A DNA stretch of 50,218 nt from an uncultured Selenomonadales bacterium (GTDB taxonomy: Bacteria > Bacillota > Negativicutes > Selenomonadales > Selenomonadaceae): contig CAMKFB010000009.1 of NCBI GenBank assembly GCA_946411735.1, positions 1 through 50,218 of the forward strand, in the 5' to 3' direction. Positions 105-47,451 of the stretch are shown in pieces. The notes under the pieces were generated by a model. That model worked only from the letters and a program-made list of their open reading frames with translations, did no database searches and was not told the DNA's origin. The position numbers and the translations under genes are program-made. How positions within the stretch are numbered: the stretch's first letter is position 1; the number at the start of each line of letters is the position of its first letter.

Positions 105-767
105 TCACATCACCTTCACGCTCACCATCCCGTCGAGCTCGCGAAGATTCTCGACCACGTTGATGCTCGTGATGCCTCGATGATTATACACGTCCAGCTC
201 GATATAAATCAGCCCCGTCTCGCTCTCGTCCGCGCGGACCTTCACCGATCGAATGTTCATGCTCATCTCCGCAAGCCGCCGACTGATCAACAGCATTTGC
301 CCCGAACGCTCCGAGCAATGGATCAGTATCGTCATATTCTTTTCGTGCATCAGCCATTCGTCGATGCGGCTCAGAGTCCCGAGCGTTGCGAATACCAGTG
401 CCGTCGTGAACAGCGCGCCCGTGTAATATCCCGCGCCGACCGCCAAGCCCACGCCCGCCACGACCCATAAGCACGCCGCCGTCGTCAGACCGATCACCGT
501 CAAGCCTTCCTTCATGATCGCGCCCGCGCCCAGGAAACCGATCCCGCTCACCACTTGCGCCGCCAACCGCGCCGGATCGGCGTTCGTTCGACCCTCGACG
601 TTCAAATACAGCGCCTCCGACAAAACCATTATCAAACACGAGCCCAAGCATACCAAGATGTTCGTCCGCAGCCCCGCCACTTTTCGACGCGATTGCCGCT
701 CGTAGCCGATAGCGCCGCCCAATACGCACGATAGCGCCAGCCTCAACAGTAATTCCCATTCATTCAT
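105..767 (-). CDS. MgtC/SapB family membrane protein
   Basis: This 220-residue protein belongs to the MgtC/SapB family of inner-membrane proteins, linked in other bacteria to Mg2+ limitation and to modulation of ATP synthase or Mg transporters. The family marks are visible: GAIGYERQ near the start, GLRTNILVCLG, SGIGFLGAGAI and GLTTAACLWVVAGVG, spread over four or five hydrophobic segments in the first 130 residues. A soluble C-terminal domain of about 85 residues follows, as in the longer MgtC proteins with an ACT-like tail. The start overlaps the end of the CYTH gene by 8 bp, so the two are probably co-transcribed and translationally coupled. The substrate or target here is not known. Confidence 0.9.
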   Translation of the reverse strand: MNEWELLLRLALSCVLGGAIGYERQSRRKVAGLRTNILVCLGSCLIMVLSEALYLNVEGRTNADPARLAAQVVSGIGFLGAGAIMKEGLTVIGLTTAACLWVVAGVGLAVGAGYYTGALFTTALVFATLGTLSRIDEWLMHEKNMTILIHCSERSGQMLLISRRLAEMSMNIRSVKVRADESETGLIYIELDVYNHRGITSINVVENLRELDGMVSVKVM

Positions 768-1221
768 TAAATCGCTCCGCCTTCGTCCATTTTTTGTACG
801 GTCGCTTGACCAGCTCGCTGTTGAGATATCGCTTGAGCCCCGTCACCTCCCGCCCGAGCCACGACGGTAAATCAATTTTTTCGTCCTCCGAAGTCAACTC
901 GATCTCCGCCACAATCAAGCCCGCGTTGTCGCCTTCAAACACATCCAACTCGATACGCCCCAGCCGATAGCGCGTCTTCTCGATCAGTGTTCCCTGACAT
1001 CGATTGAGCAGCTCCTTCGCATCCGCCGCCGGGATTTCGTATTCATACTCGTATCGCTTGAGCCCCTCCGCGCGGAACTTGATCGTCAAGCGCCCGCTCG
1101 AATTCTTCAGCCGCACACGAACCGTCGGCTCAAAACTCAAATAGCCCTGCACGATCCGTTCGCCGCCGTCGACCTTCGGAAGCGCCTTTACCAAATACTT
1201 GCGTTCGATTTCAACGCCCAT
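760..1221 (-). CDS. CYTH domain protein (triphosphate tunnel enzyme)
   Basis: This 153-residue protein matches the CYTH family, whose bacterial members are mostly inorganic triphosphatases that act in a beta-barrel tunnel. The signature EIERKYLV lies at residues 4-11. Alternating charged strands follow (VRVRLK, TIKFRAE, YEYEIP, ELDVFEG, VAEIEL), and the C-terminal WLGREVTGLKRYLN matches the end of the family. A Shine-Dalgarno GGAG precedes the ATG. It is the first gene of a two-gene unit with the MgtC-like gene. Triphosphatase activity is inferred from the family; adenylate cyclase activity is unlikely at this size. A copy of the TCCGCGCGGA palindrome lies inside (1067-1076). Confidence 0.9.
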   Translation of the reverse strand: MGVEIERKYLVKALPKVDGGERIVQGYLSFEPTVRVRLKNSSGRLTIKFRAEGLKRYEYEYEIPAADAKELLNRCQGTLIEKTRYRLGRIELDVFEGDNAGLIVAEIELTSEDEKIDLPSWLGREVTGLKRYLNSELVKRPYKKWTKAERFNE

Positions 1222-1226
1222 TTTGC

Positions 1227-1255
1227 TTGCACTCCTTCAACCTTTGCGATAAAAT
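1227..1255 (+). promoter_or_regulatory. promoter of the LCP gene
   Basis: TTGCAC (1227-1232) and TAAAAT (1250-1255) are separated by 17 bp. They lie 47 bp before the TTG start of the LytR-CpsA-Psr gene. Confidence 0.7.
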
Positions 1256-1260
1256 CCTTC

Positions 1261-1289
1261 ATTATGAATTTCATTCGTTTTTGTGGAAA
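1261..1289 (-). promoter_or_regulatory. possible promoter of the CYTH-mgtC unit
   Basis: On the minus strand TTTCCA (1284-1289) and CATAAT (1261-1266) are 17 bp apart, about 40 bp before the CYTH start. The -35 box matches the consensus at only four of six positions. It would overlap the leader of the divergent LCP gene. Confidence 0.4.
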
Positions 1290-3388: not shown

Positions 3389-3954
3389 TTCAAGCGGCGC
3401 AAAAAGTTTTTCATCATGGTTCGACCGTCGGGCGTGAGAATCGACTCGGGATGAAACTGCACGCCCTCAACGTCAAACTCTTTGTGCCGCAGCCCCATGA
3501 TCGTCCCGTCCTCGAGTTCGCTCGTCACCGTCAAGCAATCCGGCAGCGTCTCGCGCTCGACGATCAGCGAATGATATCGCCCGACCTCCACTTTCGACGG
3601 AAGCCCTTCGTAGAGCCCGCGCCCGTCGTGAATCAGCCGCGACGTCTTGCCGTGGATTATTTTTTTGCTCCGAATTATTCTCCCGCCGAAAACTTCTCCG
3701 ATCGCTTGATGCCCGAGGCATATTCCGAGAATCGGCAGCCGCCCCGCGAACGCTCGAATCATATCTTCGCTCACGCCTGCCGCCGACGGCACGCCAGGTC
3801 CCGGCGAGATCACAATGCCGCGATACTTGCGATAGCTCACATCGGATGCGGTGACTTCGTCGTTGCGCCGTACCTCGACATTCGCGCCCAGCTCCGACAG
3901 CATCTGATAAACGTTGTAGACAAAGCTGTCGTAGTTGTCAATCAGCAGAACCAT
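3385..3954 (-). CDS. trpG: anthranilate synthase component II (glutamine amidotransferase)
   Basis: This 189-residue class I glutamine amidotransferase supplies ammonia to the partner synthase. The catalytic Cys lies in GICLGHQAIGE, and the His/Glu pair in GVQFHPESILT. The start region LLIDNYDSFVYN and the PGPGVPS loop are typical of TrpG/PabA. It overlaps the end of trpE by 17 bp and is the last gene of the dhaL-leuA-trpE-trpG unit. The same protein may also serve 4-amino-4-deoxychorismate synthesis for folate, as in many Firmicutes, which sequence alone cannot settle. Confidence 0.92.
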   Translation of the reverse strand: MVLLIDNYDSFVYNVYQMLSELGANVEVRRNDEVTASDVSYRKYRGIVISPGPGVPSAAGVSEDMIRAFAGRLPILGICLGHQAIGEVFGGRIIRSKKIIHGKTSRLIHDGRGLYEGLPSKVEVGRYHSLIVERETLPDCLTVTSELEDGTIMGLRHKEFDVEGVQFHPESILTPDGRTMMKNFLRRLN

Positions 3955-5413
3955 TGCGCTCCACCTCCCGCACGACTTGCCGCATCGCCGCTGCCTTATT
4001 CAATATCTCATTCCACTCGTTGAGCGCGATCGAGTCCGCAACGATGCCCGCGCCCGCTTGGATCACGCCGATCCGATCGCGTTCGATGCGCATAGTCCGA
4101 AGGTCGATACACATGTCGAGATTGCCCGCGAAGTCGAGATATCCGACCACGCCCGCATAGCTCCCGCGTCGTACCGGCTCGAGTTCGCTGATAAGCTCCA
4201 TCGCGCGAAGCTTGGGCGCGCCGCTGACCGTGCCGGCGGGGAACGTCGCCTTCAACACGTCGAGCGCCTCATAGCCCGAATGCAACGTGCCCTCGACGCT
4301 CGAGACCAAATGCATCACGTGGCTGAATCGCTCCACGCTCCGCAGTTTCGTCACCTTGACCGTGCCGGGCTCCGACAGCCGCCCGAGATCGTTGCGCGCC
4401 AAATCGACCAGCATCGCATGCTCCGCCAATTCCTTTTCGTCGTGAAGAAGTTCGTCGGCAAGCCGCGCGTCCTCTTCGATTGTTGCTCCGCGCGGACGCG
4501 TCCCCGCAATCGGATAAGTCCACACGCGCCGCCCCTGCACCTTGACGAGCATCTCCGGCGACGCCCCGCACAACTTATTCTCGCCGAAATTTATGTAATA
4601 CATGTACGGCGACCCGTTGACCTGTCGAAGGCGGCGGTAGTATTCAAAGCCCGGGCGCGATAACATTTCTCGAAACTGCACCGAGGGCACCGCCTGAAAA
4701 ATTTCGCCGGCGAAAATATTTTCCTTGATCGTCTCGATCATCGACGCAAACGACGGCGTCATCGACGGACGCTCAATTTCGAGCGCCGCCTCCGACCGCC
4801 CCGTCGAGAACGAAACCATCAATGGCGCCTGCAATTTTTTCACGGCGGCGTCCAACTCGGCAACCGCAAGTTGATACGACCGCTCCGGCTCCTCCGCGTC
4901 GACCTCCGATAAGCACACCAATCTGATCCGCTGTTTGAGCGCGTCGTGCACAACCATCAGCCGGCTGATCATTAATTCGCCGAGCAGTTCTTCTTCGTCG
5001 AGCTCCAGCCCGCGCACCCGATCGAACGTCGCGCCGATCTCATAATTGAGATATCCGACCAGCCCGCCGCTCATCAATGGCGCCTCCCCGCCCTTGACGT
5101 GCCAACGATGCATGTACTTTTTGAGCGTGTCGATCGGCTTGCCGCCGAGCGACCGAAGCCGATCGCCCTCGAGGATCAAGAGCTTGTCGGGATAAATCTG
5201 CAACCGCGCCAGCGGCTCCGTGCCGATGAAACTGTATCGCCCGAACGCCTCCTGCGTGGTGTCGACCGACTCGAGGATATAGCCCTTGCCTTCGCCGACC
5301 AACTTCAGATAGATCGAAACGGGCGTCTCGATATCAAGCGACAGCTCCCGCTCCAGCGCAATCACACGCTCATGCTCCGCGCGGAGCTTGTAATCTTCAA
5401 ACGACGGCGTCAT
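3938..5413 (-). CDS. trpE: anthranilate synthase component I
   Basis: TrpE converts chorismate and ammonia to anthranilate, the first committed step of tryptophan synthesis. The 491-residue length fits TrpE. The N-terminal part has PVSIYLKL and ILESVDTTQEAFGRYSF, matching the region where tryptophan binds for feedback control; this favours TrpE over PabB. The chorismate-binding domain shows EIFQAVPS, CGASPEMLV, PIAGTRPRG, LVDLARNDLGR, FPAGTVSGAPK and IQAGAGIVADS. Its ATG overlaps the leuA stop as ATGA and its end overlaps trpG by 17 bp, so translation is coupled throughout. No other trp genes are in the window. Confidence 0.93.
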   Translation of the reverse strand: MTPSFEDYKLRAEHERVIALERELSLDIETPVSIYLKLVGEGKGYILESVDTTQEAFGRYSFIGTEPLARLQIYPDKLLILEGDRLRSLGGKPIDTLKKYMHRWHVKGGEAPLMSGGLVGYLNYEIGATFDRVRGLELDEEELLGELMISRLMVVHDALKQRIRLVCLSEVDAEEPERSYQLAVAELDAAVKKLQAPLMVSFSTGRSEAALEIERPSMTPSFASMIETIKENIFAGEIFQAVPSVQFREMLSRPGFEYYRRLRQVNGSPYMYYINFGENKLCGASPEMLVKVQGRRVWTYPIAGTRPRGATIEEDARLADELLHDEKELAEHAMLVDLARNDLGRLSEPGTVKVTKLRSVERFSHVMHLVSSVEGTLHSGYEALDVLKATFPAGTVSGAPKLRAMELISELEPVRRGSYAGVVGYLDFAGNLDMCIDLRTMRIERDRIGVIQAGAGIVADSIALNEWNEILNKAAAMRQVVREVERNGSAD

Positions 5414-7822: not shown

Positions 7823-9088
7823 ATGCTTGATATGAAATTCATTCGGGACAACCGCGCGGCGGTCGAGGCGATGCTTGCCGATCGTTGCTCGACGGTTAAG
7901 CTCGATCCGATTTTTGATCTCGATGCAAAACGGCGGACGATGTTGTCCGACGTCGAGGCGCTCAAGGCTCAACGCAATGCCCGCTCGAAAGAGATTGGCA
8001 AGTTGAAAGCGGCGGGCGCGGATGTCGAGGGCGTGAAGGCAGAAGTCGGAGCGATCGGCGACAAAATTTCGGCGCTCGACGGCGAGCTTCGCGAGGTCGA
8101 GGGCGCGCTGAGAGATTTACTGTTGCGCGTGCCGAACATGGTTCAACCGACGGTTCCGCGCGGAGCCGACGACACTTTCAACGTGGAGGTTCGACGTTGG
8201 GGCGAAATCCCGTCGATCGACAAACCGCAATCGCATTTCGAGATCGGTGAGCGGCTCGGGATCATGGATCAGCAGCGGGCGGCGAAAGTCAGCGGCAGTC
8301 GCTTTACGTTCATGCTCGGGCTTGGGGCGCGGCTGGAGCGCGCGGTGATGAATTTCTACATGGACACGCACGCGTCGCGCGGCTACAAAGAGGTGCTGCC
8401 GCCGTACATCGTCAACACCGCGTCGATGACGGGAACGGGGCAACTGCCGAAATTCGCCGAGGACATGTACCGGCTCGAGGGGCTTGACGCGTATCTGATC
8501 CCGACGGCGGAGGTGCCGGCGACGAATTTCTATCGTGATGAGATATTGGACGCGTCGATGCTGCCGACAAAATTCTGCTGTTACAGCGCATGCTTCCGCG
8601 CGGAAGCGGGCGCGGCGGGCAAAGACTCACGCGGTCTGATTCGCCAACATCAGTTTAACAAAGTCGAGCTCGTAAAATACACGACGCCCGAGCAATCGAA
8701 CGCGGAGCTCGAGGCGATGACGGCGGACGCGGGCTATGTGCTCGAGCAGTTGGGGCTGCCGTATCGGGTCGTGGTGCTGTCGAGCGGCGACATGGGCTTT
8801 TCGTCGTCGAAGACATACGATCTCGAGGTGTGGATGCCGGCGCAGGACAAGTATCGCGAGATATCGTCGTGCTCGAATTGCCTTGACTTCCAAGCGCGGC
8901 GCGCGGGGATCAAATTCCGTCGTGAGCCGAAGGCGAAGCCCGAGTTCGTTCACACGCTCAACGGCAGCGGCGTTGCGGTCGGACGGACGGTGGCGGCGAT
9001 TCTCGAGTGCTATCAACAGCCCGACGGCAGCGTGAAAGTGCCGGACGTTTTGATCCCGTACATGGGCGGCGTCGATGTGATCCGTTAA
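7823..9088 (+). CDS. serS: seryl-tRNA synthetase
   Basis: SerS charges tRNA-Ser with serine and also supplies Ser-tRNA for selenocysteine where that exists. The 421-residue length is standard. The N-terminal two-helix coiled coil that grips the tRNA runs from about residue 30 to 100. The class II catalytic core shows motif 2 in FRAEAGAAGKDSRGLIRQHQ and motif 3 in NGSGVAVGRTVAAILE. GAGGTGA precedes the ATG. It is a single-gene unit, with its own promoter and a hairpin terminator behind it. It holds two copies of the TCCGCGCGGA palindrome (8155 and 8595). Confidence 0.98.
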   Translation: MLDMKFIRDNRAAVEAMLADRCSTVKLDPIFDLDAKRRTMLSDVEALKAQRNARSKEIGKLKAAGADVEGVKAEVGAIGDKISALDGELREVEGALRDLLLRVPNMVQPTVPRGADDTFNVEVRRWGEIPSIDKPQSHFEIGERLGIMDQQRAAKVSGSRFTFMLGLGARLERAVMNFYMDTHASRGYKEVLPPYIVNTASMTGTGQLPKFAEDMYRLEGLDAYLIPTAEVPATNFYRDEILDASMLPTKFCCYSACFRAEAGAAGKDSRGLIRQHQFNKVELVKYTTPEQSNAELEAMTADAGYVLEQLGLPYRVVVLSSGDMGFSSSKTYDLEVWMPAQDKYREISSCSNCLDFQARRAGIKFRREPKAKPEFVHTLNGSGVAVGRTVAAILECYQQPDGSVKVPDVLIPYMGGVDVIR

Positions 9089-13806: not shown

Positions 13807-15036
13807 TCATTGCCTCCCTTGGAAAATTTTTTCCAGCCGCTTGATGATAAGCTCCGCCAGCTCCGTCTTCGGCATCAGCGAAAAATACTCCGCCATGCTC
13901 CCGCGCGTGATGATCGTTACCATGTTCGTGTCGGTGTTGAAGCCCGCGCCCGCCACCGTCACGTCGTTGGCGACTATCATGTCGAGATTTTTTTGTTTCA
14001 TCTTCGCCGCCGCGTACGACTCGAGATTGTTCGTCTCCGCCGCGAATCCGATCAGCACTTGCCGCTGTTTCTTTTGCCCCAGCTCAAATAATATGTCGGG
14101 ATTTTTTTCGAGCTCGATCGTCAGCGTCTCGTCGGACTTCTTGATTTTCTCGTCGGCGATCGTTTTCGCCCGATAATCCGCCACCGCCGCCGACATTATC
14201 ACGCCGTCGCACGTCTCGTATTCTTTGAGCACCGCGTCGTGCATCTCGAGCGCCGTTTCCACTCGAATCACCTCGACACCGTACGGATCGCTCAGCACCG
14301 AAGGCGCCGTCACCAATAAAACTTGCGCCCCATGTCGATGCGCCGCTTCCGCGATCGCAAAGCCCATCTTGCCGCTCGAGCGATTTCCGATGTATCGAAC
14401 GGGATCGATCGGCTCGATTGTGCCGCCCGCCGTCACGATTATTTTTTTGCCCTCGAGTTTGCGCGCCTTCAATCGCTCGAAATGCCAATCGATCGCCGCC
14501 GCCAACTCCTCGGGCTCCGGCAGCCGCCCCTTGCCCGACGTCCCGCAAGCCAACCGTCCGTCGTTCGGCTCGACGATCTCAAAGCCCCGCCGTCGGAGCG
14601 TCTCGAGATTTGCTTGCGTCGCCGCGTTCGACAGCATTCGATCGTTCATCGCCGGCGCCACCATTATCGGCGCCGTTGTCGCCAGGATCATCGTCGTCAA
14701 CAGGTCGTCCGCGATCCCGTGCGCCGCCTTCGCCAAGAAATTCGCCGTCGCCGGCGCGATCACGACCAGCTCCGCAAACTTCGCCAGCGCTATGTGCGCC
14801 ACCCGATAGTTGCTCGGCTCGCCGAACATTTCGCTGCTCACCGGTTGACCCGTCAGCTCTTGAAACGTCCGCGCGGAGATAAATTCTTTTGCCGCCGCCG
14901 TCATCACGACTCGAACCTCGGCGCCGCTCTTGACCAGCAAACTTGCCAGCCCCGCCGCTTTGAACGCCGCGATCCCGCCCGTCACGCCCAGGACGATTTT
15001 TTTGCCTTTCAGTGATGTAAATTCGTTCTCGCCCAT
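13807..15036 (-). CDS. coaBC: bifunctional phosphopantothenoylcysteine decarboxylase / phosphopantothenate-cysteine ligase
   Basis: This 409-residue protein carries out two successive steps of coenzyme A synthesis: joining cysteine to 4'-phosphopantothenate and decarboxylating the product. The N-terminal flavin-binding CoaC half begins KKIVLGVTGGIAAFKAAGL and includes the substrate-binding APAMNDRML. The CoaB half begins near residue 190 with KKIIVTAGGTIEPIDPVRYIGNRSSGKMG and includes a KxKK-like KIKKSDETL segment. I start at the ATG at 15036, directly before the conserved region; the longer frame runs back into rpoZ. It follows rpoZ by 5 bp and is followed closely by metK. Confidence 0.95.
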   Translation of the reverse strand: MGENEFTSLKGKKIVLGVTGGIAAFKAAGLASLLVKSGAEVRVVMTAAAKEFISARTFQELTGQPVSSEMFGEPSNYRVAHIALAKFAELVVIAPATANFLAKAAHGIADDLLTTMILATTAPIMVAPAMNDRMLSNAATQANLETLRRRGFEIVEPNDGRLACGTSGKGRLPEPEELAAAIDWHFERLKARKLEGKKIIVTAGGTIEPIDPVRYIGNRSSGKMGFAIAEAAHRHGAQVLLVTAPSVLSDPYGVEVIRVETALEMHDAVLKEYETCDGVIMSAAVADYRAKTIADEKIKKSDETLTIELEKNPDILFELGQKKQRQVLIGFAAETNNLESYAAAKMKQKNLDMIVANDVTVAGAGFNTDTNMVTIITRGSMAEYFSLMPKTELAELIIKRLEKIFQGRQ

Positions 15037-15285: not shown

Positions 15286-15888
15286 TCAAATTTTCAGTGC
15301 ATCGAACAGCTCCGCACTCCGCTCGACGCGACAGTGCTCGGCGACGATGATCGCTTTGATCCGCTCGACCGCCCGATCGATCGTGTCATTGACAACCGCG
15401 TAATCGTAGCGCCGACCGACGTCGATCTCCGAAGGCGCCGCGCTCAACCGTCGCGCAAGCGATTCCTCCGACTCCGTCCCGCGCCCGATGATCCGCCGCT
15501 TCAATTCCTCCAGCGAAGGCGGCAATAAAAATATAAATATACCCTCGGGGCAAGCCGCTTTAACCTGCAGCGCGCCTTGAATGTCAATCTCCAACAGCAC
15601 ATCGCGCCCCGCGTCCCGTTGACCGTCGACGTAGGAACGCAGCGTCCCGTAATAATTCCCGAAGACATCCGCGTACTCAAGAAACTCGCCGCGCTCGATC
15701 TTCTCTCGAAAATGCTCTCGATCGAAGAAAAAATACTCTCGACCGTCGACTTCGCCTCCGCGCGGAGTTCGAGTCGTCGCCGAGATCGAATACGTCAGCT
15801 CCGGCGTCGTCTCGAGAAGACGACCGCACACCGCGCCCTTACCCGTCCCCGAGGCGCCGGAGACCGTTATCAGCAAGCCGCGTGCCAT
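15286..15888 (-). CDS. gmk: guanylate kinase
   Basis: Gmk phosphorylates GMP to GDP. The 200-residue length is usual. The P-loop is GASGTGKG at residues 11-18. The GMP-binding region has SATTRTPRGGEVDGREYFF and GEFLEYADVFGNYYGT, and DVLLEIDIQGALQVK completes the family pattern. Its ATG overlaps the remA stop by one base (TAATG), showing coupling. A TCCGCGCGGA copy falls in the conserved TPRGGE segment (15757). Confidence 0.97.
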   Translation of the reverse strand: MARGLLITVSGASGTGKGAVCGRLLETTPELTYSISATTRTPRGGEVDGREYFFFDREHFREKIERGEFLEYADVFGNYYGTLRSYVDGQRDAGRDVLLEIDIQGALQVKAACPEGIFIFLLPPSLEELKRRIIGRGTESEESLARRLSAAPSEIDVGRRYDYAVVNDTIDRAVERIKAIIVAEHCRVERSAELFDALKI

Positions 15889-16188: not shown

Positions 16189-16520
16189 AGTTTGTCCTTC
16201 AAAAACTTTCCGCGCGGAGCCCCGCATCATCACATGACCGTCCGATTCGCGCCACTCGAGATCGAGCGCGCCGCCGTCGAGCAAAATCTTTACGCGCCTG
16301 ACGCTACGACCGCTCAGCACACTTGAAACCGCCGTCGCGCACGCGCAGCGCTCCCACACTCATCCGAAGCGTCGACCGATCGAACCGACGAAGAGCACGC
16401 AATACGGATTAACCATCGACACGCACGTCATAAGATACTCCGCGCCGTCGACCGCAATCGACTCGCCTTTGTCGACCGTCACATCCTCGCCGTCGAGCGA
16501 AACCTTCAGCATCCCGCGCT
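16189..16520 (-). pseudogene. decayed tandem copy of the dapF 3' half
   Basis: Directly behind dapF are fragments of a second dapF, in order and mostly in frame. They match LKVSLDGEDVTVD, then IAVDGAEYLMTCVSMVNPYC, then the end (SVLSGRSVRRVKILLDGG to the final EGQT). The pieces between are deleted, and a TGA follows the second fragment. The 5' half with the first catalytic Cys (position 70 in the intact gene) is absent, and the ACGTGAC segment with the second is cut to CACATAV. An open frame of 60 codons (16360-16542) covers part of it but cannot make a working enzyme. Confidence 0.85.
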
Positions 16521-23034: not shown

Positions 23035-23036
23035 GC

Positions 23037-31412: not shown

Positions 31413-32942
31413 ATGTTTGCGAGAATTTACGGGGCGGCGACGTTGGGCGTGGACGGGCTGATCATTTCCGTCGAGGTTGACAGCTCCAACGGCATGCCGA
31501 GTTTTGATATCGTCGGGCTGCCGAACGCTTCCGTGCGCGAATCGAAGGAGCGCGTTCGGACGGCGATCAAGAATTCCAATATGCTGCTCCGCGCGGAAAA
31601 GATCACGATCAATCTGGCGCCCGCCGACATAAAAAAAGACAGCCCCGGGCTCGATCTGCCGATTGCGATCGGGCTGTTGAGCGCGCAAGGCACCATCCCC
31701 GTCGACAACACTAAGGGCTGCCTGTTCACGGCGGAGCTGTCGCTGGAGGGAAATTTGTGCGGAGTGCACGGGGTGTTGCCGATGGTGATCAAGGCGCGCG
31801 CGGAAGGTTTTAAAAAAATATTCGTGGCGCGCGAGAACGTCAACGAGGCGCTGCTGGTCGAGGACGTCGAAGTCTACGCGCCCGAAAATCTGTCGGAGCT
31901 GATGATGTTCCTCAACGGGCAGGACGTGTTGAAGCCGGCAACGAAAATCGACACGCCGCCATCGAAAATCATCGCGCTGCCGGACGACTTCTCCGACGTG
32001 CAGGGACAATATATGGCGAAGCGGGCGTTGGAGATCGCGGCGGCGGGCGGGCATAACGTGCTGATGGTGGGCGTGCCCGGCTCGGGCAAAACGATGCTGG
32101 CTCAACGCGTCAACTCGATCCTGCCGGAGCTCACGCCCGAGGAAGCGCTCGAGGTGACAAAGATTTACAGTATCGAGGGCAAGCTTGGTCTGGACGGCGG
32201 GCTGATCAAGAAGCGACCGTTTCAACATCCGAATCACGACGCGAGCGCGGCGGCGATGATCGGCGGCGGGACGATCCCGCGCCCGGGTCAAGTGACTTTG
32301 GCGCATCACGGCGTGCTGTTCTTGGACGAGTTCCCCGAGTTTCAAAAATCGGTGCTGGAGGTATTGCGCGAGCCGCTCGAGGAGCGCAAGGTGACGATCT
32401 CGAGGGTGAACGCAACCTTGACATTCCCGTCGAGCGTCATGCTGATCTGCGCGATGAATCCATGTCCGTGCGGATGGTACGGCGATCCGAAGCATGAATG
32501 TCGATGTACGCCGAATGAGATCAGGCGTTACACTCGAAAATTATCGGGACCGTTGCTCGATCGAATCGATATCCACATTCGAGTGCCGCGCGTCGAGTAT
32601 AAAGATTTGAGCTCGAAACGAAAAGCGGAGTCGTCGGCGGTGATCCGCGAGCGGGTGTCGAAGGCGCGAAACATTCAACTCAAGCGACTGCAGCCGTATA
32701 AAATGTTTTGCAACGCGCAAATGAATCACGCGCTGATCGAAAAATTTTGCCCACTGACGGATCGGGCGGAGGATCTGTTGAGGATGTTTTACGAGAAGAA
32801 GCATGCGTCGGCGCGGTCTTACGATCGGATCAAGAAGGTGGCGCGGACGATTGCCGATCTCGAGGGCATGGACAACATCGACAACATTCACATCGGCGAG
32901 GCGATCAAGCTCCGCAACGATTTCGATCTCGACATGCTCTAA
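31413..32942 (+). CDS. comM: ComM/YifB family AAA+ ATPase (Mg chelatase-like)
   Basis: ComM is a hexameric helicase that helps branch migration during natural transformation in Gram-negatives, and it is related to Mg-chelatase ATPases. The 509-residue protein has the N-terminal ChlI-like domain (GLPNASVRESKERVRTAI, KKDSPGLDLPIA). Walker A is GVPGSGKT near residue 221, Walker B LFLDEFPEF near 305, and a Cys-rich CPCGWYGDPKHECRC segment and the C-terminal lid domain follow. GAGGTGA precedes the ATG. A TCCGCGCGGA palindrome lies inside (31588), and two more lie in terminators behind the gene. Confidence 0.95.
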   Translation: MFARIYGAATLGVDGLIISVEVDSSNGMPSFDIVGLPNASVRESKERVRTAIKNSNMLLRAEKITINLAPADIKKDSPGLDLPIAIGLLSAQGTIPVDNTKGCLFTAELSLEGNLCGVHGVLPMVIKARAEGFKKIFVARENVNEALLVEDVEVYAPENLSELMMFLNGQDVLKPATKIDTPPSKIIALPDDFSDVQGQYMAKRALEIAAAGGHNVLMVGVPGSGKTMLAQRVNSILPELTPEEALEVTKIYSIEGKLGLDGGLIKKRPFQHPNHDASAAAMIGGGTIPRPGQVTLAHHGVLFLDEFPEFQKSVLEVLREPLEERKVTISRVNATLTFPSSVMLICAMNPCPCGWYGDPKHECRCTPNEIRRYTRKLSGPLLDRIDIHIRVPRVEYKDLSSKRKAESSAVIRERVSKARNIQLKRLQPYKMFCNAQMNHALIEKFCPLTDRAEDLLRMFYEKKHASARSYDRIKKVARTIADLEGMDNIDNIHIGEAIKLRNDFDLDML

Positions 32943-32953
32943 GCACTAAAAAG

Positions 32954-32992
32954 GAGGCGGCTCCGCGCGGAACTGCCTCCCATATTTTTTCT
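32954..32992 (+). terminator. comM terminator, first repeat copy, built on the TCCGCGCGGA palindrome
   Basis: GGAGGC and GCCTCC (32954-32981) enclose the self-complementary TCCGCGCGGA. A T run follows (ATATTTTTTC). This forms a long hairpin terminator 12 bp after comM. Confidence 0.8.
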
Positions 32993-33161: not shown

Positions 33162-33200
33162 GGAGGCGGCTCCGCGCGGAACTGCCTCCAGCTTTTTTCT
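33162..33200 (+). terminator. second copy of the palindrome-bearing terminator
   Basis: The same GGAGGC...TCCGCGCGGA...GCCTCC hairpin (33162-33189) is followed by a T run, 208 bp after the first. Confidence 0.7.
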
Positions 33201-36184: not shown

Positions 36185-37687
36185 TTAAGGTCTCATGTCG
36201 CCGGTCTCGAGGAAGCGCGTGTGGAACGACAGCGCCTCTTTCAACAGATGCGGCGTGTTATTTTTCTTCGTCGCCTCGAGCGCGCGCTCGTAGTAATCGA
36301 GCAGGATCGGGCGATAATCCGGATGCGAGCACTTGTTGATGATCTCGAGCGCCCGACTCCTCGGCTCCAATCCGCGTAAATCCGCCACGCCCTGTTCGCT
36401 TATTATAATATCGACGTCGTGCTCGGTGTGATCGATGTGAGAGCACATCGGAACCACGGAGCTGATCTTGCCGCCCTTTGCCGTCGAGGGCGTGTAGAAA
36501 ATCGTCAGATAGGCGTTGCGCGCGAAATCGCCCGAGCCGCCGATGCCGTTCATCATCTTGGTGCCGGTGACGTGCGTCGAGTTGACGTTGCCGTAGATGT
36601 CGACCTCGAGCGCGGTATTCATCGCGATCACGCCCAAGCGGTGGACGACCTCCGGCGAATTGGAAATCTCCTCGGGGCGGAGCAACAGGTACTTCTTATA
36701 CTTCTCGACATCCTTATAGAAACGCTCCATGCCCGCCGGCGAAGGGCTGAACGCCGTGCCGCTGGCGAATTTCAACTTGCCGGCGTCGATCAGATCGAGC
36801 ATCGCATCCTGAATGACTTCGGTGTAGACCTCGAGATCGGTCATATCCGACTCCACAAAGCCCTCGAGCACCGCGTTGGCGACATTGCCCACGCCCGATT
36901 GCAACGGCAGCAGACCTTTCGGCATGCGACCGGCTTCGATCTCCGCGCGGAGGAAGTCGAGAGTGAACGCCGCCATCTTTTTGGAGTTCTCATCGACCGG
37001 CGTGAGATCGCGCGTGTGATCCTTAATGTCGCACGGCACGATGAATTTGATTTTCTCGGGCGTGCACGGAATGTACGTCGTCCCAATCCGATCGTCGGCT
37101 TTGACAATCGGGATCGGCAGGCGATTGGGCGGATCGAGCGGAACGTAGACGTCGTGCATGCCCTCGAGCGCCATCGGCTGAGTCGTGTTGACTTCGACGA
37201 TCACGATGTCCGCCGATTGCACGTAGGACGCCGCGTTGCCGAGCGAAGTCGTCGGGATCAGATTGCCCTCTTCGGTGATCGCCGCCGCCTCGACCAGCGC
37301 CACGTCGATCTTGCCGAGGAATCCCGTGCGCGTAAGTTGCGCCGACTCCGAAAGGTGCAGGTCGAGATAATTTACATGCCCGTCGTTGATATCTTTGCGA
37401 AGCGCCGCGTCGGTCTGATAAGGCAGGCGCTGTTTGATGCCGTGCACCAGCGCCAACACGTCGTCGCACTCGGGACCCGTCGAGGCGCCCGTCCAAATGT
37501 TGACCGTGAAGGGCTCCTTCTTCATGCGCTCGGCAAGCGCGATCGGCACCGCCTTCGGATACGCCGACGCCGTGAAGCCCGAGCACGCAAGCGTCATACC
37601 CGGCTTGATCCACGCGGCGACCTCCTCGGCGCTGACGATTTTCGAGTGCAAGTCTTTGTTCTTGACTCGATCGCGAATATCAATCAT
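36185..37687 (-). CDS. succinyl-CoA/propionyl-CoA:acetate-type CoA-transferase (acetyl-CoA hydrolase family)
   Basis: This 500-residue class I CoA-transferase probably exchanges CoA between propionyl- or acetyl-CoA and succinate. That regenerates succinyl-CoA for the mutase, so CoA is recycled in propionate formation. Family segments are LACSGFTASAYPKAVP, NIWTGASTGPECD, GVGNVANAVLEG, VYTEVIQDAMLDLID (with the Glu that forms the CoA thioester) and ISEQGVADLRGLEPR. It lies upstream of mce and mmdA on the same strand. It was long annotated as acetyl-CoA hydrolase; the transferase role is inferred from the neighbours. Confidence 0.88.
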   Translation of the reverse strand: MIDIRDRVKNKDLHSKIVSAEEVAAWIKPGMTLACSGFTASAYPKAVPIALAERMKKEPFTVNIWTGASTGPECDDVLALVHGIKQRLPYQTDAALRKDINDGHVNYLDLHLSESAQLTRTGFLGKIDVALVEAAAITEEGNLIPTTSLGNAASYVQSADIVIVEVNTTQPMALEGMHDVYVPLDPPNRLPIPIVKADDRIGTTYIPCTPEKIKFIVPCDIKDHTRDLTPVDENSKKMAAFTLDFLRAEIEAGRMPKGLLPLQSGVGNVANAVLEGFVESDMTDLEVYTEVIQDAMLDLIDAGKLKFASGTAFSPSPAGMERFYKDVEKYKKYLLLRPEEISNSPEVVHRLGVIAMNTALEVDIYGNVNSTHVTGTKMMNGIGGSGDFARNAYLTIFYTPSTAKGGKISSVVPMCSHIDHTEHDVDIIISEQGVADLRGLEPRSRALEIINKCSHPDYRPILLDYYERALEATKKNNTPHLLKEALSFHTRFLETGDMRP

Positions 37688-40112: not shown

Positions 40113-40824
40113 ACAGTTTCAGCGTCCGCAGATATTTTTTCCGCTCGTAAGGGATGCGCTGACTTGTCACCGCCTTTTGGATCGTCATCGAATGCACCGT
40201 CGGCTCGAGCATCTCATCTTCTAACAGCGGCACCGTCTGATCGTAGCGCTTGACCAGCGCCGTCGCAAAGTACCACGCCTCCATCGTCTGCACGTAGTAA
40301 TCGTTCGACGCCACGTCCATCACCCATTGAAAATGCTCCTCGTCGAAATACTCGTCGAGATAATGTTTCATCAGCATCGACAGCCCGAACCGTATCGTGT
40401 ATGCATGCTCCGCGCGGAGCCACTCGGCAATTTTTTCCTCGAGCCCCGTCGGATGCAGCGCAAACATTTTCGGATTGAGCGCATCACACACCGCCCAATT
40501 GTCGATGTGCGGCAAAAACGCTTCGACCAATCGCATGAACGGCGTGTACAGCTCGGGATCGCTGCAAATCGAGAGCATGTACGCGTGCAGCAAATTTTCT
40601 TCGTAGTAAAAATGCGGCAGCGCTCTGCCGAAGGTGAGTCGCAGATCGCCGTACTCCTTCGCCGACAGCTCCGTCGTGAGCGCTTTGATGTCCGGCGCCC
40701 GCACGCCGATTATTTTTTCGAGCGGGATGTTTGACACCAATCTTGCCGTATGCGCTCGAAAACTTTCGTCGGCGCGCTCCTTCAGCCGCCGTTGAATCCA
40801 ATCGATGTTCAGTTCCTCGTCCAA
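40111..40824 (-). CDS. AlkD-like DNA alkylation repair protein
   Basis: AlkD-family proteins are HEAT-repeat DNA glycosylases that remove alkylated bases. This 237-residue protein matches the group with VRAPDIKALTTELS, FYYEENLLHAYMLS, FLPHIDNWAVCDAL and IRFGLSMLMKHYLD. The Asp-Asn-Trp-Ala-Val-Cys-Asp segment covers the active-site region of this type (D-x-W-x-x-x-D). I start at the TTG at 40824, with GGGGAGGG upstream; the longer frame runs into the glycosyltransferase. It is the last gene of a surface-glycan unit, which is odd for a repair enzyme. Confidence 0.85.
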   Translation of the reverse strand: MDEELNIDWIQRRLKERADESFRAHTARLVSNIPLEKIIGVRAPDIKALTTELSAKEYGDLRLTFGRALPHFYYEENLLHAYMLSICSDPELYTPFMRLVEAFLPHIDNWAVCDALNPKMFALHPTGLEEKIAEWLRAEHAYTIRFGLSMLMKHYLDEYFDEEHFQWVMDVASNDYYVQTMEAWYFATALVKRYDQTVPLLEDEMLEPTVHSMTIQKAVTSQRIPYERKKYLRTLKL

Positions 40825-40826
40825 TT

Positions 40827-42580: not shown

Positions 42581-43628
42581 GATGCGCCTCCAATAATTTT
42601 TTGCACGCGTCGAGCACGTCCGCGGGAATGATATGATACAAACAATTCGGCTTGGGATGCGACGGGCATTGCTCTGGCTTGACGGAGCAGGGACAGCATG
42701 ATTCGTTCGACGAGAGTGCGACGGCGTTGGGATTGATCGGGTGCCAGCGTTCGACGGGCGTGCAGCCGAACATCACGACCATTGGGACGGATGCGGTGGC
42801 GGCGATGTGAGCGGCGCCGGTGTCGACGGTGATGAACAAATCGACGCGCCTGAAAATCTCGGCAAGATCGATCAACGAAGTTTCGCCGCAAAAATTTTCA
42901 ACGGTCGAGCCGATTGCGGCGATAACGGTCTCGGCGTACTCTCGATCACTCGGCGCTCCGACCACAAAAAATGCCGCATCATACTCCGCGCGGAGCGCTC
43001 GAACGACTTCCGCAAAATACTCCTTCGGATAAGTCTTCAACTCGAAAGTGCCCTTGACGCACAACGCGATCTTCAATCGAGCCGCCGGCAGCCGATCGAA
43101 CAAAAGATTGACCTTGGCTCGAGCGTCGTCGGTAATGCGCGCGAACACCGGCTCCGACCAACCGTCGAGCCCGAAAAATTTCTTGACGATCGTCTGATAC
43201 GTCCGCGCCTGCAGAGTCCGATCGAGATCGTGATCGATTGCAATCACGTCGGTATAGAACTTCGTCACGGAACTTTTTTTGTCGTCGAAGACCTTGCTCG
43301 GACCGACGCGCTTGGGAATGCGCGCGAACCACGCCAACAGCGCCGGACGGAGCTTTCGATCGAAGGAAATGTAGAGATCGAAACGGCGTCGGCGAATATC
43401 TTTGACGGTCGAGAACATTTTCGACAGGGAATTTTCCTTGGCGCGATAGTCGAGGACGATCACATCATCGACGACGGGATTGTTTTTGACGGCATCGCTG
43501 ACGACGCGCTTGACGAGCATCGTAATGCGAGCGTCGGGGAAATTTTTTTTGATCAGCGCGAGGGCACTCGTGGTGAGGACGACGTCGCCGAGATTGACCA
43601 GCGCGCTGACGAGAATATTTTTATACAT
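42564..43628 (-). CDS. ADP-heptose:LPS heptosyltransferase-like glycosyltransferase (family 9)
   Basis: Family 9 transferases add heptose to lipopolysaccharide inner core. The protein shows ILVSALVNLGDVVLTTSALALIKKNFPDARITMLV at the start, then FDRKLRPALLAWFARIPKRVG, FVVGAPSDREYA, the donor-site FITVDTGAAHIAAT and VMFGCTPVERWHP. A Cys cluster near the C-terminus (SCCPCSVKPEQC) is common in this family. I start at the ATG at 43628, because the promoter -10 box lies only 14 bp before the earlier ATG. Its presence supports a diderm envelope. Confidence 0.92.
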   Translation of the reverse strand: MYKNILVSALVNLGDVVLTTSALALIKKNFPDARITMLVKRVVSDAVKNNPVVDDVIVLDYRAKENSLSKMFSTVKDIRRRRFDLYISFDRKLRPALLAWFARIPKRVGPSKVFDDKKSSVTKFYTDVIAIDHDLDRTLQARTYQTIVKKFFGLDGWSEPVFARITDDARAKVNLLFDRLPAARLKIALCVKGTFELKTYPKEYFAEVVRALRAEYDAAFFVVGAPSDREYAETVIAAIGSTVENFCGETSLIDLAEIFRRVDLFITVDTGAAHIAATASVPMVVMFGCTPVERWHPINPNAVALSSNESCCPCSVKPEQCPSHPKPNCLYHIIPADVLDACKKLLEAHHDFNR

Positions 43629-43650
43629 CGAATCACTCATTTCGCCGCCG

Positions 43651-43679: not shown

Positions 43680-44454
43680 TTTTTTCGGTGACGTGGACGT
43701 TTTCGCGGTCGAGGTAATACAGCTTGACGTATTTCGCCATGGTGTAGAAAAAATGGAACGCCGACAACACGAAGCCGATCCTGCCGTCGAGGAAGCCGCC
43801 GCGGAGAAAATACATTCGAAACGACGCCCACATCGGGTGGAGGATCATGTCGAGGAGCGAGGCGGATTTGCCTTCCTCCTTAGCCTTTCGAGCGGCAAGT
43901 GTGGTGTAGAAATTGAGCTTGCCGAAGTAGTGATCCCAATCGCGATACGGATAGTGGACGAGATATTCATTCGACGGCAGCTTGGTCTCTTGACAGTTGT
44001 GATGAATTTTGGGGTGAACGAAGCCTGTGACGTAAGAGCCTTGGCGCGGCAGGAGTCGGACGACGTAATCGGGGAACCAGCCGCCGTGCCGGAGCGGTTG
44101 CCCCCAAAAGTAGCTCAGCCTTGCGACGGCATAAGCATTTGATCGATCATCCGCGCGGAGGATTTCCTTGATGTGGTCGGACAATTGATCGGTGGCGCGC
44201 TCATCGGCGTCAATGAAAAAAATCCAGTCGCATGACGCCTGTTCGATCGCGAAAGTCTGTTGCGCGCCCCAATTGCCGTCGAGGGCGTGAGCGATCACCT
44301 TGGCGCCTTTTGAGCGGGCGATATCGGCGGTGTGATCGGTGGAGCCGTCGTCGATGACAAGAATCTCGTCGGCGAAGTTTTTGACGCTGTCGAGGCAAGC
44401 GCCGATAAATTTCTCTTCGTTTTTGGCGAGGATGAGGACGGAAACATCAGCCAT
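43672..44454 (-). CDS. family 2 glycosyltransferase (WaaE/KdtX-like)
   Basis: This 260-residue GT-A enzyme resembles the LPS-core beta-glucosyltransferases of the WaaE/KdtX type. It has VSVLILAKNEEKFIGACLDSV, ILVIDDGSTDHTADIA, IFFIDADERATDQL (the metal-binding DxD) and the family-specific YFWGQPLRHGGWFPDY and RLLPRQGSYVTGFVHPK. A hydrophobic C-terminal part may touch the membrane. It overlaps the preceding gene by 8 bp. Confidence 0.92.
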   Translation of the reverse strand: MADVSVLILAKNEEKFIGACLDSVKNFADEILVIDDGSTDHTADIARSKGAKVIAHALDGNWGAQQTFAIEQASCDWIFFIDADERATDQLSDHIKEILRADDRSNAYAVARLSYFWGQPLRHGGWFPDYVVRLLPRQGSYVTGFVHPKIHHNCQETKLPSNEYLVHYPYRDWDHYFGKLNFYTTLAARKAKEEGKSASLLDMILHPMWASFRMYFLRGGFLDGRIGFVLSAFHFFYTMAKYVKLYYLDRENVHVTEKID

Positions 44455-45589: not shown

Positions 45590-46494
45590 ATCATCACTCC
45601 CGCCAGATTTTTTTCGACCGCCTCGTCGAGAGCGTCGAGCAAAGCGAACCGCCGTCGATAGGTCGCGCGCTTATGCGAAGGAATTTCCTCGACGGTCTTG
45701 CGCTTCTCGACCAACGGCAACTCGTCAAACCGAGCATCATCCGTGTGAACGCCGCCCGCCTCCTGCCAAAAATCGCTGAACGACGTCTTCAACTTCCGAT
45801 CGCTGCGCACATGATTATTGGCATAATACCCCTCGTTGGTAACGGCATAAATTTTTTCGAGCCCGAGCGTCCGCGCCGTCGCTTGCGCCGCGTACAGGAT
45901 CAAATTTTTCGTTCGATACGCGTGACATTTTTTCGTGATCACCTTGATGATGTCCTTGGCGCCGTCCATATTCGGTCCCTGCAGCGCCCCGATCCACATC
46001 GACCAATCGCCTGACCGATCCCGCGCGATCCAAAACATTATCTGATATATCGACTCGCCGTCCGGCAAGCGCAACATCAGCGCCGCCAATCCTTCTTTCC
46101 TTTGCCCCGGCTCCGCGCGGAGCACCAAACTCATCGAGCCGAGCCGATCGTCGAGCGGCATCGACCACAAATCCAGCGTCCGATCCGAATAAAGATCGAG
46201 CAGCGCCTGCGGTTGGAGTTTCGCGCGCAAAAATTTCATGTGATCCTCAATCAGGCGCACGCGCTCATCGAACGTCGAACGATGATAAAAAAACGCCCGC
46301 GTCGGCTGTTCGTAGACGTACGGAAAATTTTCCGCGACCTGACGGAGTAATTCGTCGCCGTCGAAAAACTCCACCACGCGTTTCATTCGCCGCCGATTGA
46401 GCAGGCAGCGCGCGATGAACACCGCAAACCGATGCGCCTCCCGCGGATTATTCAAGTCATAAATTTTTTTCCCGAGCTCGATAAATTTTTGCAT
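45586..46494 (-). CDS. DUF535 / VirK-YbjX family protein
   Basis: This 302-residue protein matches DUF535, which includes VirK and YbjX of enterobacteria, linked to outer-membrane or virulence functions of unknown mechanism. Recognisable parts are RMKRVVEFFDGDELL, HRSTFDERVRLIEDHMKFL, LRLPDGESIYQIMFWIAR, WMWIGALQGPN-like text and KKCHAYRTKNLILYAAQA. The ATG at 46494 has GGAGAGG just before it. It heads the second glycan unit and is coupled to the next glycosyltransferase. An N-acyl or acetyltransferase-like fold has been suggested for the family; I cannot confirm it. Confidence 0.85.
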   Translation of the reverse strand: MQKFIELGKKIYDLNNPREAHRFAVFIARCLLNRRRMKRVVEFFDGDELLRQVAENFPYVYEQPTRAFFYHRSTFDERVRLIEDHMKFLRAKLQPQALLDLYSDRTLDLWSMPLDDRLGSMSLVLRAEPGQRKEGLAALMLRLPDGESIYQIMFWIARDRSGDWSMWIGALQGPNMDGAKDIIKVITKKCHAYRTKNLILYAAQATARTLGLEKIYAVTNEGYYANNHVRSDRKLKTSFSDFWQEAGGVHTDDARFDELPLVEKRKTVEEIPSHKRATYRRRFALLDALDEAVEKNLAGVMI

Positions 46495-46527
46495 TGTCCT
46501 CTCCAAAAATCTTAATCAGTGGTAAAA

Positions 46528-46556
46528 TTTTTAGCGCAAACGACGGGCGTTGTCAA
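46528..46556 (-). promoter_or_regulatory. promoter of the DUF535-glycosyltransferase unit
   Basis: On the minus strand TTGACA (46551-46556) and TAAAAA (46528-46533) are 17 bp apart, about 33 bp before the DUF535 start. Confidence 0.75.
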
Positions 46557-46584
46557 CAATTATTTGCGGCGGAGGTTATGAGCG

Positions 46585-47451
46585 ATGCAACGGGAAGTGA
46601 TCCGACGATTTATGCGGGCGCTGGTCGAGACGCCATCGATTGGTCGGGCGGCGGTCGACGAAGCGCTCCGAGCATGCTCGAATTTCGACGGGCTTGACGG
46701 GCTGATCGATCGATTTCTATTCGATTGCGAGCGCGCCTCGAGTGCCGAAAAATTTTTGATCGATAAATGCGGGATCGATCTCGACAGCGGGGACACCGGT
46801 TCGATTATCGGCGTCGACACGTCGAGCGTCGTGAAGCCGAACGTCGTCGATTATCCCGCGACCACATCATTCGAGCTCGACGGGCTGACCGTCAACGTTC
46901 CGCCTCAAAACACCCTCGACAAAATTCAACGGCTCATCGTCCGCAACTTATATAATTGGCAACTCAAGGGTGCGCTCGAGCTGATCCAAGAATCCTACGG
47001 CGAAAATTATTCGTTCGATCCGCGCGGAGCGGCGACGGTTCGCGAGCTTGAGATCAAATTTGTTTCGAGCGGAAATTTCATGGCGCGCGCGGGACATCGA
47101 TACATGCTCAAGACCGGCGCGACATCGGCGTTGGCGTTGCAAATCAACACGGCATATTACGACGCCGACGGGACGTGGACGGGCGAAATTTCTTTCGAGC
47201 GCGTGCTGGCGCATGAGATGACTCACGCGGTGATGGCCGCCAACATCATTCATTACGCCGAACTGCCGGCTTACATCAAAGAGGGCATCGCCGAGCTTAC
47301 TCACGGAATCAACGATCAACGGCGGTCGATGATCGAATCGCTGTCGAGCGACGCGGCGACATTGCGGGCGGCGCTGTCTTCGAGCGGCGGGACGATGTAC
47401 GCGGCGGGATATATGTTGATGCGATACTTCGCCCGACAAGCGGCACGTTGA
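46585..47451 (+). CDS. putative zinc metalloprotease-like protein, possibly truncated at the C-terminus
   Basis: This 288-residue protein carries a zinc-peptidase pattern: the HExxH motif in LAHEMTHAVMAANII and a downstream Glu in KEGIAELTHGIND, as in gluzincins. No signal peptide is seen. The N-terminal 100 residues are helical with no known motif, and a beta-rich stretch follows. GGAGG stands nine bases before the ATG. The frame ends at RYFARQAAR; shifting the frame there gives GTLTIKNAADVELALINAGG, which looks like a repeat of surface or secreted proteins, so a frameshift may have cut off a C-terminal domain. Confidence 0.75.
   Translation: MQREVIRRFMRALVETPSIGRAAVDEALRACSNFDGLDGLIDRFLFDCERASSAEKFLIDKCGIDLDSGDTGSIIGVDTSSVVKPNVVDYPATTSFELDGLTVNVPPQNTLDKIQRLIVRNLYNWQLKGALELIQESYGENYSFDPRGAATVRELEIKFVSSGNFMARAGHRYMLKTGATSALALQINTAYYDADGTWTGEISFERVLAHEMTHAVMAANIIHYAELPAYIKEGIAELTHGINDQRRSMIESLSSDAATLRAALSSSGGTMYAAGYMLMRYFARQAAR

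Follow-up and report, generated by a model that had tools for sequence, protein, structure and literature searches.

A ten-base palindrome, TCCGCGCGGA, is repeated throughout the genome of a bacterium of the Selenomonadaceae. In the whole genome (2.42 Mb) 841 copies were found, which is one per 2.9 kb or about 350 per Mb, and the reversed word, used as a control, occurs only 5 times. The word has the core CCGCGCGG and the consensus GCTCCGCGCGGAGC. Our tentative interpretation, held with less than even confidence, is that it is an iterated palindrome of the HIP type and the site of a putative palindrome-reading DNA protein.

Results

The window, that is the whole stretch of 50,218 nucleotides that was analysed, contains exactly 24 copies of the word (Table 1), the same number as in the earlier note from which this work started. 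Of the start positions listed there 22 were exact, whereas 29396 had to be corrected to 29386 (off by 10) and 32963 to 32962 (off by 1). Extension of 11 copies to CTCCGCGCGGAG and of 7 to GCTCCGCGCGGAGC was likewise reproduced; the GC content, put at 60%, was measured as 57.2%. When up to one mismatch was allowed, 36 places were found (24 exact, 12 with one mismatch) as against 10.3 +/- 3.2 in 100 dinucleotide shuffles. The 12 near-copies taken alone are thus near chance. The copies at 32962 and 33171 are not independent, since both lie in a single tandem duplication of about 211 bp. The density in the window is 0.48 per kb, and the average of the 850-kb sample described below is 0.35 per kb.

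Table 1. Copies of the word in the window. Genes were called with a purpose-written script that misses some genes, one of them known (the HemN-type gene).
Element	Positions	Strand	Context
TCCGCGCGGA	229..238	none	within ORF 105-767 (-)
TCCGCGCGGA	1067..1076	none	within ORF 760-1221 (-)
TCCGCGCGGA	4487..4496	none	within chorismate-binding enzyme gene 3938-5413 (-)
GCTCCGCGCGGAGC core	5376..5385	none	within chorismate-binding enzyme gene 3938-5413 (-)
TCCGCGCGGA	8155..8164	none	within seryl-tRNA synthetase gene 7823-9088 (+)
TCCGCGCGGA	8595..8604	none	within seryl-tRNA synthetase gene 7823-9088 (+)
TCCGCGCGGA	14868..14877	none	within CoaBC-like (DFP/flavoprotein) gene 13807-15144 (-)
CTCCGCGCGGAG core	15757..15766	none	within ORF 15286-15888 (-)
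TCCGCGCGGA	16209..16218	none	outside called genes
TCCGCGCGGA	16568..16577	none	within diaminopimelate epimerase gene 16539-17357 (-)
GCTCCGCGCGGAGC core	18575..18584	none	within thiolase gene 18466-19593 (+)
CTCCGCGCGGAG core	19284..19293	none	within thiolase gene 18466-19593 (+)
GCTCCGCGCGGAGC core	23161..23170	none	within radical SAM/HemN-type gene 22938-24152 (+), missed by gene caller
GCTCCGCGCGGAGC core	26540..26549	none	within GidA-family gene 26227-27537 (-)
GCTCCGCGCGGAGC core	29386..29395	none	within dprA 29187-30359 (-)
TCCGCGCGGA	31588..31597	none	within comM-like (Mg-chelatase) gene 31413-32942 (+)
TCCGCGCGGA	32962..32971	none	top of terminator-like hairpin; tandem copy 1 of 2
TCCGCGCGGA	33171..33180	none	second copy of duplicated stretch that holds 32962
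CTCCGCGCGGAG core	36942..36951	none	within acetyl-CoA hydrolase/transferase gene 36185-37687 (-)
GCTCCGCGCGGAGC core	40409..40418	none	within ORF 40111-40881 (-)
CTCCGCGCGGAG core	42985..42994	none	within glycosyltransferase-9 gene 42564-43679 (-)
TCCGCGCGGA	44150..44159	none	within ORF 43672-44454 (-)
GCTCCGCGCGGAGC core	46112..46121	none	within ORF 45586-46506 (-)
TCCGCGCGGA	47019..47028	none	within ORF 46585-47451 (+)

In the 850-kb sample of the genome 301 copies were counted against 4.05 expected from an order-3 Markov model, a 74-fold excess. With an order-5 model, which already holds much of the word, the excess was 12-fold (164 against 14.0 in the first 450 kb). At both orders the word had the highest observed to expected ratio of all 10-mers counted at least 60 times on both strands of 450 kb. 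Thus the enrichment proposed from the window extends over the genome and is not explained by third- or fifth-order composition.

The strictly kept part is an 8-bp palindrome, CCGCGCGG, of which 540 copies were found against 92 expected in 850 kb. Preferences weaken outward from it, symmetrically on both sides, within a preferred frame of 14 bp. The outer pair around the core is T..A in 301 cases, kept on one side in 195 and on neither in 44, which fits independent sides (p = 0.74). One-mismatch copies are accordingly common at the outer position (195 against 30.6 expected), and the inner eight positions gave 90 against 69. This inner excess consists of transitions only (32 against 12; transversions 58 against 57). 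In the sister genome the outer position gave 92 against 15.2 and the inner ones 41 against 41.5.

It was found that one sister species also carries the word, in 592 copies, whereas each of the other 64 of the 66 genus genomes examined has 0-25. Among 300 genomes drawn from the class, none besides the two species exceeded 36 copies. Both motif-bearing species belong to a ruminant-gut group. The sister was aligned in 79 pieces (at least 150 columns, best first, non-overlapping). Sites were identical in 21 of 39 and 21 of 32 comparisons (54-66%), and control 10-mers matched for GC in 18.7%, with binomial probabilities of 1e-6 and 8e-9, respectively. Of the 18 sites private to the source genome, 15 have an ungapped counterpart in the sister, and insertion is thus not the origin of most of them; at these 15 the sister sequence is on average 3.8 mismatches away from the word, compared with 2.3 for controls. 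In 24 further relatives, sampled over 12-20 kb each, no GC-rich 10-mer palindrome came near the density of TCCGCGCGGA, a search that a word of lower density would escape, and AAAATTTT-type words recur in most of these samples. GGGCGCCC was considered as an enriched word of the sister's own and rejected: its excess of 50 against 5.4 in 279 kb shrank to 120 against 59 in 894 kb under a different model order, and it seems to belong to longer repeats. Viral carriers were also considered. GCTCCGCGCGGAGC occurs in at least 120 stretches of viral contigs, with one site in each of the 80 listed, which was read as chance.

The main rival is that the word is a DNA uptake or self-recognition sequence, as in the Neisseriaceae and Pasteurellaceae, preferred by a pilus-borne or inner-membrane receptor and spread by biased transformation (molecular drive). 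This is a serious possibility, though we would not expect it to be the case. As the earlier note proposed, competence genes were looked for: comEC is full length in both motif-bearing species (frames of 782 and 783 aa), and secretins and pilus-type ATPases (T2SSE) occur in all seven genomes examined, both species among them. In the window, dprA and the comM-like gene are present as had been said, each with a copy inside. The two copies said to follow the comM-like gene exist, but they are the duplicates of the terminator-like hairpin. Copies at these two genes are not marked as special. Drive would also give the density of one copy per 2.9 kb and the even spacing and altered protein residues described below. 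On the other hand comEC was found in 62 of the 66 genus genomes, and the word is abundant in just two. It is a perfect palindrome with symmetric flanks, and the uptake words known to us are asymmetric, that of A. pleuropneumoniae included; nor did the analysis yield a candidate receptor. Secretins number three in each motif-bearing species and two in the five relatives examined (of 64), the extra cluster being a second Tad/Flp system. T2SSE matches (4 and 5 against 4-6 in these relatives) are not higher in total. The extra pilus as an uptake device is only a lead, with five of the 64 relatives compared.

Near-copies do not separate the two kinds of word. Relative to base composition, over-representation of TCCGCGCGGA at 0, 1, 2 and 3 mismatches is 188, 5.5, 0.76 and 0.50, close to the uptake words of N. 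gonorrhoeae (392, 4.8, 0.65 and 0.34) and H. influenzae (183, 2.0, 0.22 and 0.07) (PMC1939737, Table 1). HIP1 shows a similar fall with mismatch (1129, 10.4, 1.3), so the profile is not diagnostic and does not decide between the classes. For the same reason the scarcity of inner near-copies was dropped as an argument against an uptake word.

Copies are spread more evenly than at random, with a coefficient of variation of the spacing of 0.785 against 0.98 +/- 0.05, and none of 1000 randomisations was as even. Such spacing could also mark the sites of a nucleoid or chromosome-organising protein specific to the clade, distributed to coat or loop the chromosome; the dyad with graded flanks resembles a dimer binding profile, and density is similar within and outside genes. 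This is nevertheless unlikely. The sequence-specific organisers ParB, MatP, Noc and SlmA have tens of sites in restricted regions, and no candidate protein was identified here.

Within the sample 257 of the 301 copies lie in called genes, where about 7 would be expected from codon usage, and the rest lie outside them. All three reading frames are used (75/131/51 against 0.4/6.2/0.2 expected from codon usage). Density outside called genes equals or exceeds that inside, a figure that is approximate because the script misses some genes. Flanking C and G are favoured in every frame, more strongly outside called genes, and the preference is gone by about 6 bases out, so that there is no longer repeat. 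It is hardly credible, therefore, that the word is a mere by-product, whether of a preference for certain codons or amino acids (Leu-Arg-Ala-Glu) or of a terminator or mobile repeat containing it: the commonest frame, xTC CGC GCG GAx, does hold 131 of the 257 coding copies, and two window copies do lie in a duplicated terminator-like hairpin, but the frame and intergenic counts contradict it, as do the relatives without the word and the ungapped sister alignments. An interspersed repeat, MITE or terminator family was rejected on the lack of conservation past those flanking bases and on the share of copies in called genes.

At the sites, 49 of 84 residues are identical to outgroups compared with 69% elsewhere (Fisher p 0.04), as judged from hits of at least 45% identity spanning the site, one per site, which covered 21 of the 257 coding sites. 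Against the sister there was no deficit (146 of 200 identical compared with 71%).

A matching methyltransferase had also been suggested as a check. No gene with the distribution of the word was found among PF00145 (C5 enzymes) and PF01555 in the 66 genomes, where one may be missed because both motif-bearing genomes are drafts, 91-93% complete. The C5 enzymes do not look like a common cause, since the intact ones of the two species, the broken C5 frame at G060:C10 of the sister aside, are only 32-34% identical. The sole close ortholog over the cut-off common to both species is an orphan amino-methyltransferase beside a NirJ1-like gene (79% identity), lying at G000:C10:2368-3171 in the source genome and on G060:C97 in the sister. 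It seemed promising but became a weaker candidate, as it occurs in nine other genomes with 0-16 copies of the word, and eight of these nine had no GC-rich palindrome in 12-20 kb samples.

Discussion

The comparisons with HIP1 and with uptake sequences made in the earlier note have each found partial support, with points for and against. As a HIP-type palindrome, the word would have arisen within one small clade of Selenomonadaceae. We infer a protein reader, most likely either a cytosine methyltransferase or a dimeric DNA-binding protein acting with DNA repair or recombination. Through selection or repair bias, this putative reader would make sites by point substitution, preserve the 8-bp core and maintain roughly one site per 2-3 kb. 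It should be noted that an enzyme capable of methylating the word, a hallmark of HIPs, did not appear in a matching distribution in our sequence searches, and that an uptake signal would equally be expected to show conservation, gain of sites and even spacing.

It could be possible that this pair of species evolved a genome-wide palindromic watermark independently, outside cyanobacteria and the known uptake families. One species would then still be gaining sites and refining the word to 14 bp, with a dedicated putative reader acting by uptake, recombination or methylation-directed repair; we offer this as a conjecture somewhat short of an even chance. If true, the motif-free relatives would show the starting state, a natural experiment on the birth of such words. 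In our view one difficulty with HIP1 is its near-universal occurrence in its group. The present word is confined to two of 66 genus genomes with motif-free relatives at hand; therefore gene gain, loss and substitution can be polarised, and the presence or absence of genes can be used to look for the reader. Any model has to satisfy several quantitative constraints, namely the strictness of the core, the symmetric grading of the flanks, the even spacing and site differences of several steps.

Some force appears to maintain the word and its even spacing, in a manner reminiscent of the unexplained repeat of cyanobacteria, and on the best reading the word is a variant of that already known, unexplained kind. 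HIP1 (GCGATCGC) was reportedly described in 1995. Like HIP1 and its alternates, TCCGCGCGGA is a GC-rich palindrome in huge excess and sporadic across genomes, and its one-base deviations favour the outermost position. Unlike them, it belongs to a host of the Negativicutes and has an 8-bp core in a longer preferred frame. According to Elhai (2015, PMC4390886), HIP1 and alternate HIPs reach roughly 500-2500 per Mb, above the density found here; HIP1 deviations concentrate at the outermost position; and HIPs are tied to a methyltransferase capable of modifying them, for which no co-distributed counterpart was found in the two families searched, the relation between HIP1 and methyltransferases being still called a mystery there. 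With the DUS of Neisseria and the USS of Pasteurellaceae the word shares a length of about ten bases, hundreds of copies, the fall with mismatch and the company of competence and pilus genes, and differs in being palindromic and in its restriction within a genus where comEC is nearly universal. The palindromic chromosome-organising sites, parS, matS and those of Noc and SlmA, are likewise dyad-symmetric with graded flanks, whereas TCCGCGCGGA is far commoner and occurs in almost all of the stretches that were sampled.

Abundance and anatomy of the palindrome

The observation of a highly iterated 10-bp palindrome, TCCGCGCGGA, is solid, and its extent is larger than could be seen from the window. 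It was claimed in the earlier note that the window holds 24 copies, 11 of which extend to 12 bp and 7 to 14 bp, and all three counts were reproduced exactly; 22 of the 24 start positions listed were also exact, while two were wrong, by 10 and by 1. A count over the whole genome and against a Markov model had been proposed there, and both bear out the enrichment. The word occurs 841 times in the genome carrying the window (a draft of 2,418,287 bases in 135 contigs, about 93% complete), which is one copy per 2.9 kb, and its reversed form occurs 5 times. An 850-kb sample of this genome (40 stretches and the window) contained 301 copies against 4.05 expected from an order-3 model. When 10-mers counted at least 60 times over the two strands of the first 450 kb were ranked by observed over expected number, TCCGCGCGGA was at the top at order 3 and at order 5, followed by its own shifts and one-end variants and then by AAAAATTTTT-type words.

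The invariant part of the word is its 8-bp core, CCGCGCGG, found 540 times in the sample against 92 expected. The pair flanking it is T..A in 301 of these copies, has one of the two bases in 195 and neither in 44, a split close to that of independent sides (probability 0.74). Copies with one mismatch are concentrated at the outer position (195 against 30.6 expected); the eight inner positions gave 90 against 69, and this excess consists of transitions alone (32 against 12; transversions 58 against 57). Beyond the outer pair C is found in 68% and then G in 50%, and there is a mild preference for A at -4 to -6. The preference for C at -1 upstream holds in every reading frame (84, 63 and 59%); copies outside called genes show it more strongly than those inside (76% against 67%). 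In the sister species, G060, the outer C reaches just 45%, and the 12-bp form makes up 26 of 172 copies (15%) as against 135 of 301 (45%) in the own genome.

Distribution among relatives

The count in related genomes suggested in the earlier note showed that the word is abundant in one further species. Across 66 genomes of the genus the sister has 592 copies, and the remaining 64 have 0–25 each; a class-wide draw of 300 genomes, 24 of them from the genus, gave no further genome with more than 36. The sister was the nearest relative by score among 60 genus genomes (74% identity over 2.8 kb of one test stretch). AAAATTTT and AAAAATTTTT exceeded expectation several-fold in the two motif species as well as in most of the sampled relatives. 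Samples of the sister contained a further family of repeated words, among them AGGCGGGCGC and GCGAGCCGCC, that resemble fragments of a longer interspersed repeat.

Placement and evolution of the sites

Genes were called with our own procedure. The sites lie within called genes in 257 of 301 cases (0.34 per kb) and outside in 44 (0.48 per kb, an approximate density because the gene caller misses some genes); the sister has equal densities inside and outside (0.193 and 0.190 per kb). All three reading frames are used, by 75, 131 and 51 copies, where codon usage predicts 0.4, 6.2 and 0.2. On visual inspection, these 44 extragenic copies were not terminator-like as a class; in the same comparison the sister is not included. 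Two copies in the window nonetheless lie in a duplicated hairpin, that of the tandem duplication listed in the table: its first unit folds into a hairpin of the terminator type that carries the palindrome at its top, and over this part the second unit has 90% identity.

Neighbouring sites are too evenly spaced for random placement. The coefficient of variation of the spacing, a statistic which leaves out site-free stretches at the sample edges (one of them 16.6 kb), was 0.785 against 0.98 ± 0.05, and none of 1000 random placements matched it. Gaps above 8 kb numbered 3 against 12.9 ± 2.7 and gaps below 500 bp 32 against 47.8 ± 6.0; below 1 kb there was no significant shortage (79 against 87.6 ± 6.7).

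In 122 kb of alignment 21 of 39 own sites were identical in the sister, and the same 21 were recovered from the 32 sister sites; control 10-mers of equal GC were identical in 18.7%. Conservation was lower for copies with one outer base matched (17 of 40 cores identical) and for those with neither (0 of 5), all-GC 8-mers giving 25% in comparison. The sister counterparts of 15 ungapped own-only sites were 3.8 mismatches away against 2.34 for controls, a value reached in none of 20,000 draws. The own counterparts of 7 ungapped sister-only sites were merely 1.6 mismatches away, and five of the seven were single mismatches. From these small numbers, in a comparison of two genomes, we infer active gain by several substitutions in the own lineage together with some recent decay. 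For 21 coding sites that could be compared with an ortholog free of the motif, the four spanned residues agreed in 49 of 84 cases against 69% elsewhere in the same proteins (Fisher p 0.04), so that some protein conservation may be overridden by the word. No such deficit appeared in the comparison with the sister (146 of 200 against 71%).

Competence genes and candidate methyltransferases

The presence of competence genes, as the earlier note had proposed to examine, holds for comEC in both motif species. Its distribution does not follow the motif: comEC is found in 62 of the 66 genomes, and the confinement of the motif to two species is therefore not explained by competence genes. Each motif species has three secretins, as against two in each of five relatives, and the third is part of an extra Tad/Flp pilus cluster; the five relatives seem to carry a single cluster. 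When the Tad loci were set against each other (L409, L410 and L411 against L162 and L412), the common cluster, recognised by similarity, had no palindrome sites in either species and lay within site-free stretches (16.6 kb and 10.5 kb), whereas the extra cluster had sites at about the usual density.

A methyltransferase that reads a GC-only core would in all likelihood act on cytosine. The earlier note had asked for a matching methyltransferase; no enzyme with the distribution of the motif was found among the PF00145 and PF01555 enzymes of the 66 genomes. C5 enzymes (PF00145) occur in 46 of them, and between the two motif species their intact copies share 32–34% identity. One close PF01555 ortholog above the cut-off is common to both motif species (79% identity). 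This orphan amino-methyltransferase adjoins a radical SAM gene that matches NirJ1 best, though just below the NirJ1 cut-off, and is found in 11 of 66 genomes, the two motif species and nine without the motif; it may be required for the motif without being enough by itself. A second shared PF01555 pair is distant (44% identity) and is taken, from length alone, for Type III enzymes.

GGCC is nearly missing from the own genome (241 against 4808 expected in 850 kb) and the sister (69 against 4488), and was below one third of expectation in 24 of 24 relatives sampled, which may reflect a prolonged exposure of the whole genus to GGCC-type restriction. At one locus a C5 methyltransferase stands beside a short gene, which we take to resemble NgoPII-type GGCC restriction enzymes. 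The topoisomerase I-like frame of the window is short and possibly a variant or disrupted gene.

Locations of individual features in the window and at other loci
Feature	Location	Strand	Length	Remark
Orphan amino-methyltransferase	L174:1102-1905 and L177:1102-1884		260-267 aa	PF01555 halves matched in swapped order
C5 methyltransferase and short gene	L077 (G000:C14:32000-38500; G000, own genome)			
Tandem duplication	window 32948-33363		~211 bp	behind comM-like gene
Topoisomerase I-like frame	window 27534-29180	-	548 aa	topoisomerase domain cut-off just reached

Comparison with known repeated words

Over-representation was calculated by number of mismatches against the base-composition expectation, apparently as in Bakkali 2007 (PMC1939737), and set beside the values in that paper. 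This measure does not separate an uptake word from a cyanobacterial highly iterated palindrome (HIP).

Over-representation at 0, 1 and 2 mismatches (last four rows from Bakkali 2007, PMC1939737)
Word	0	1	2
TCCGCGCGGA, own genome	188	5.5	0.76
TCCGCGCGGA, sister	121	2.4	0.15
N. gonorrhoeae	392	4.8	0.65
H. influenzae	183	2.0	0.22
A. pleuropneumoniae	145	10.0	1.1
Synechocystis HIP1	1129	10.4	1.3

Among the matches listed, published HIP work concerned cyanobacteria by title or abstract, no title joined uptake sequences with Negativicutes, to which the Selenomonadaceae belong, and papers containing the TCCGCGCGGA string were unrelated by title. In Elhai 2015 (PMC4390886), HIP1 and sporadic alternate HIPs are described in cyanobacteria, with deviations from HIP1 biased to the outer position and a link to a methyltransferase, and it is proposed that methylation-directed mismatch repair creates the sites. 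The behaviour of the present palindrome is HIP-like or uptake-word-like, and its link to a methyltransferase is hypothetical. The palindromic form of TCCGCGCGGA, its outer-position bias and the mismatch between its distribution and that of comEC may favour a HIP, but the host is not a cyanobacterium.
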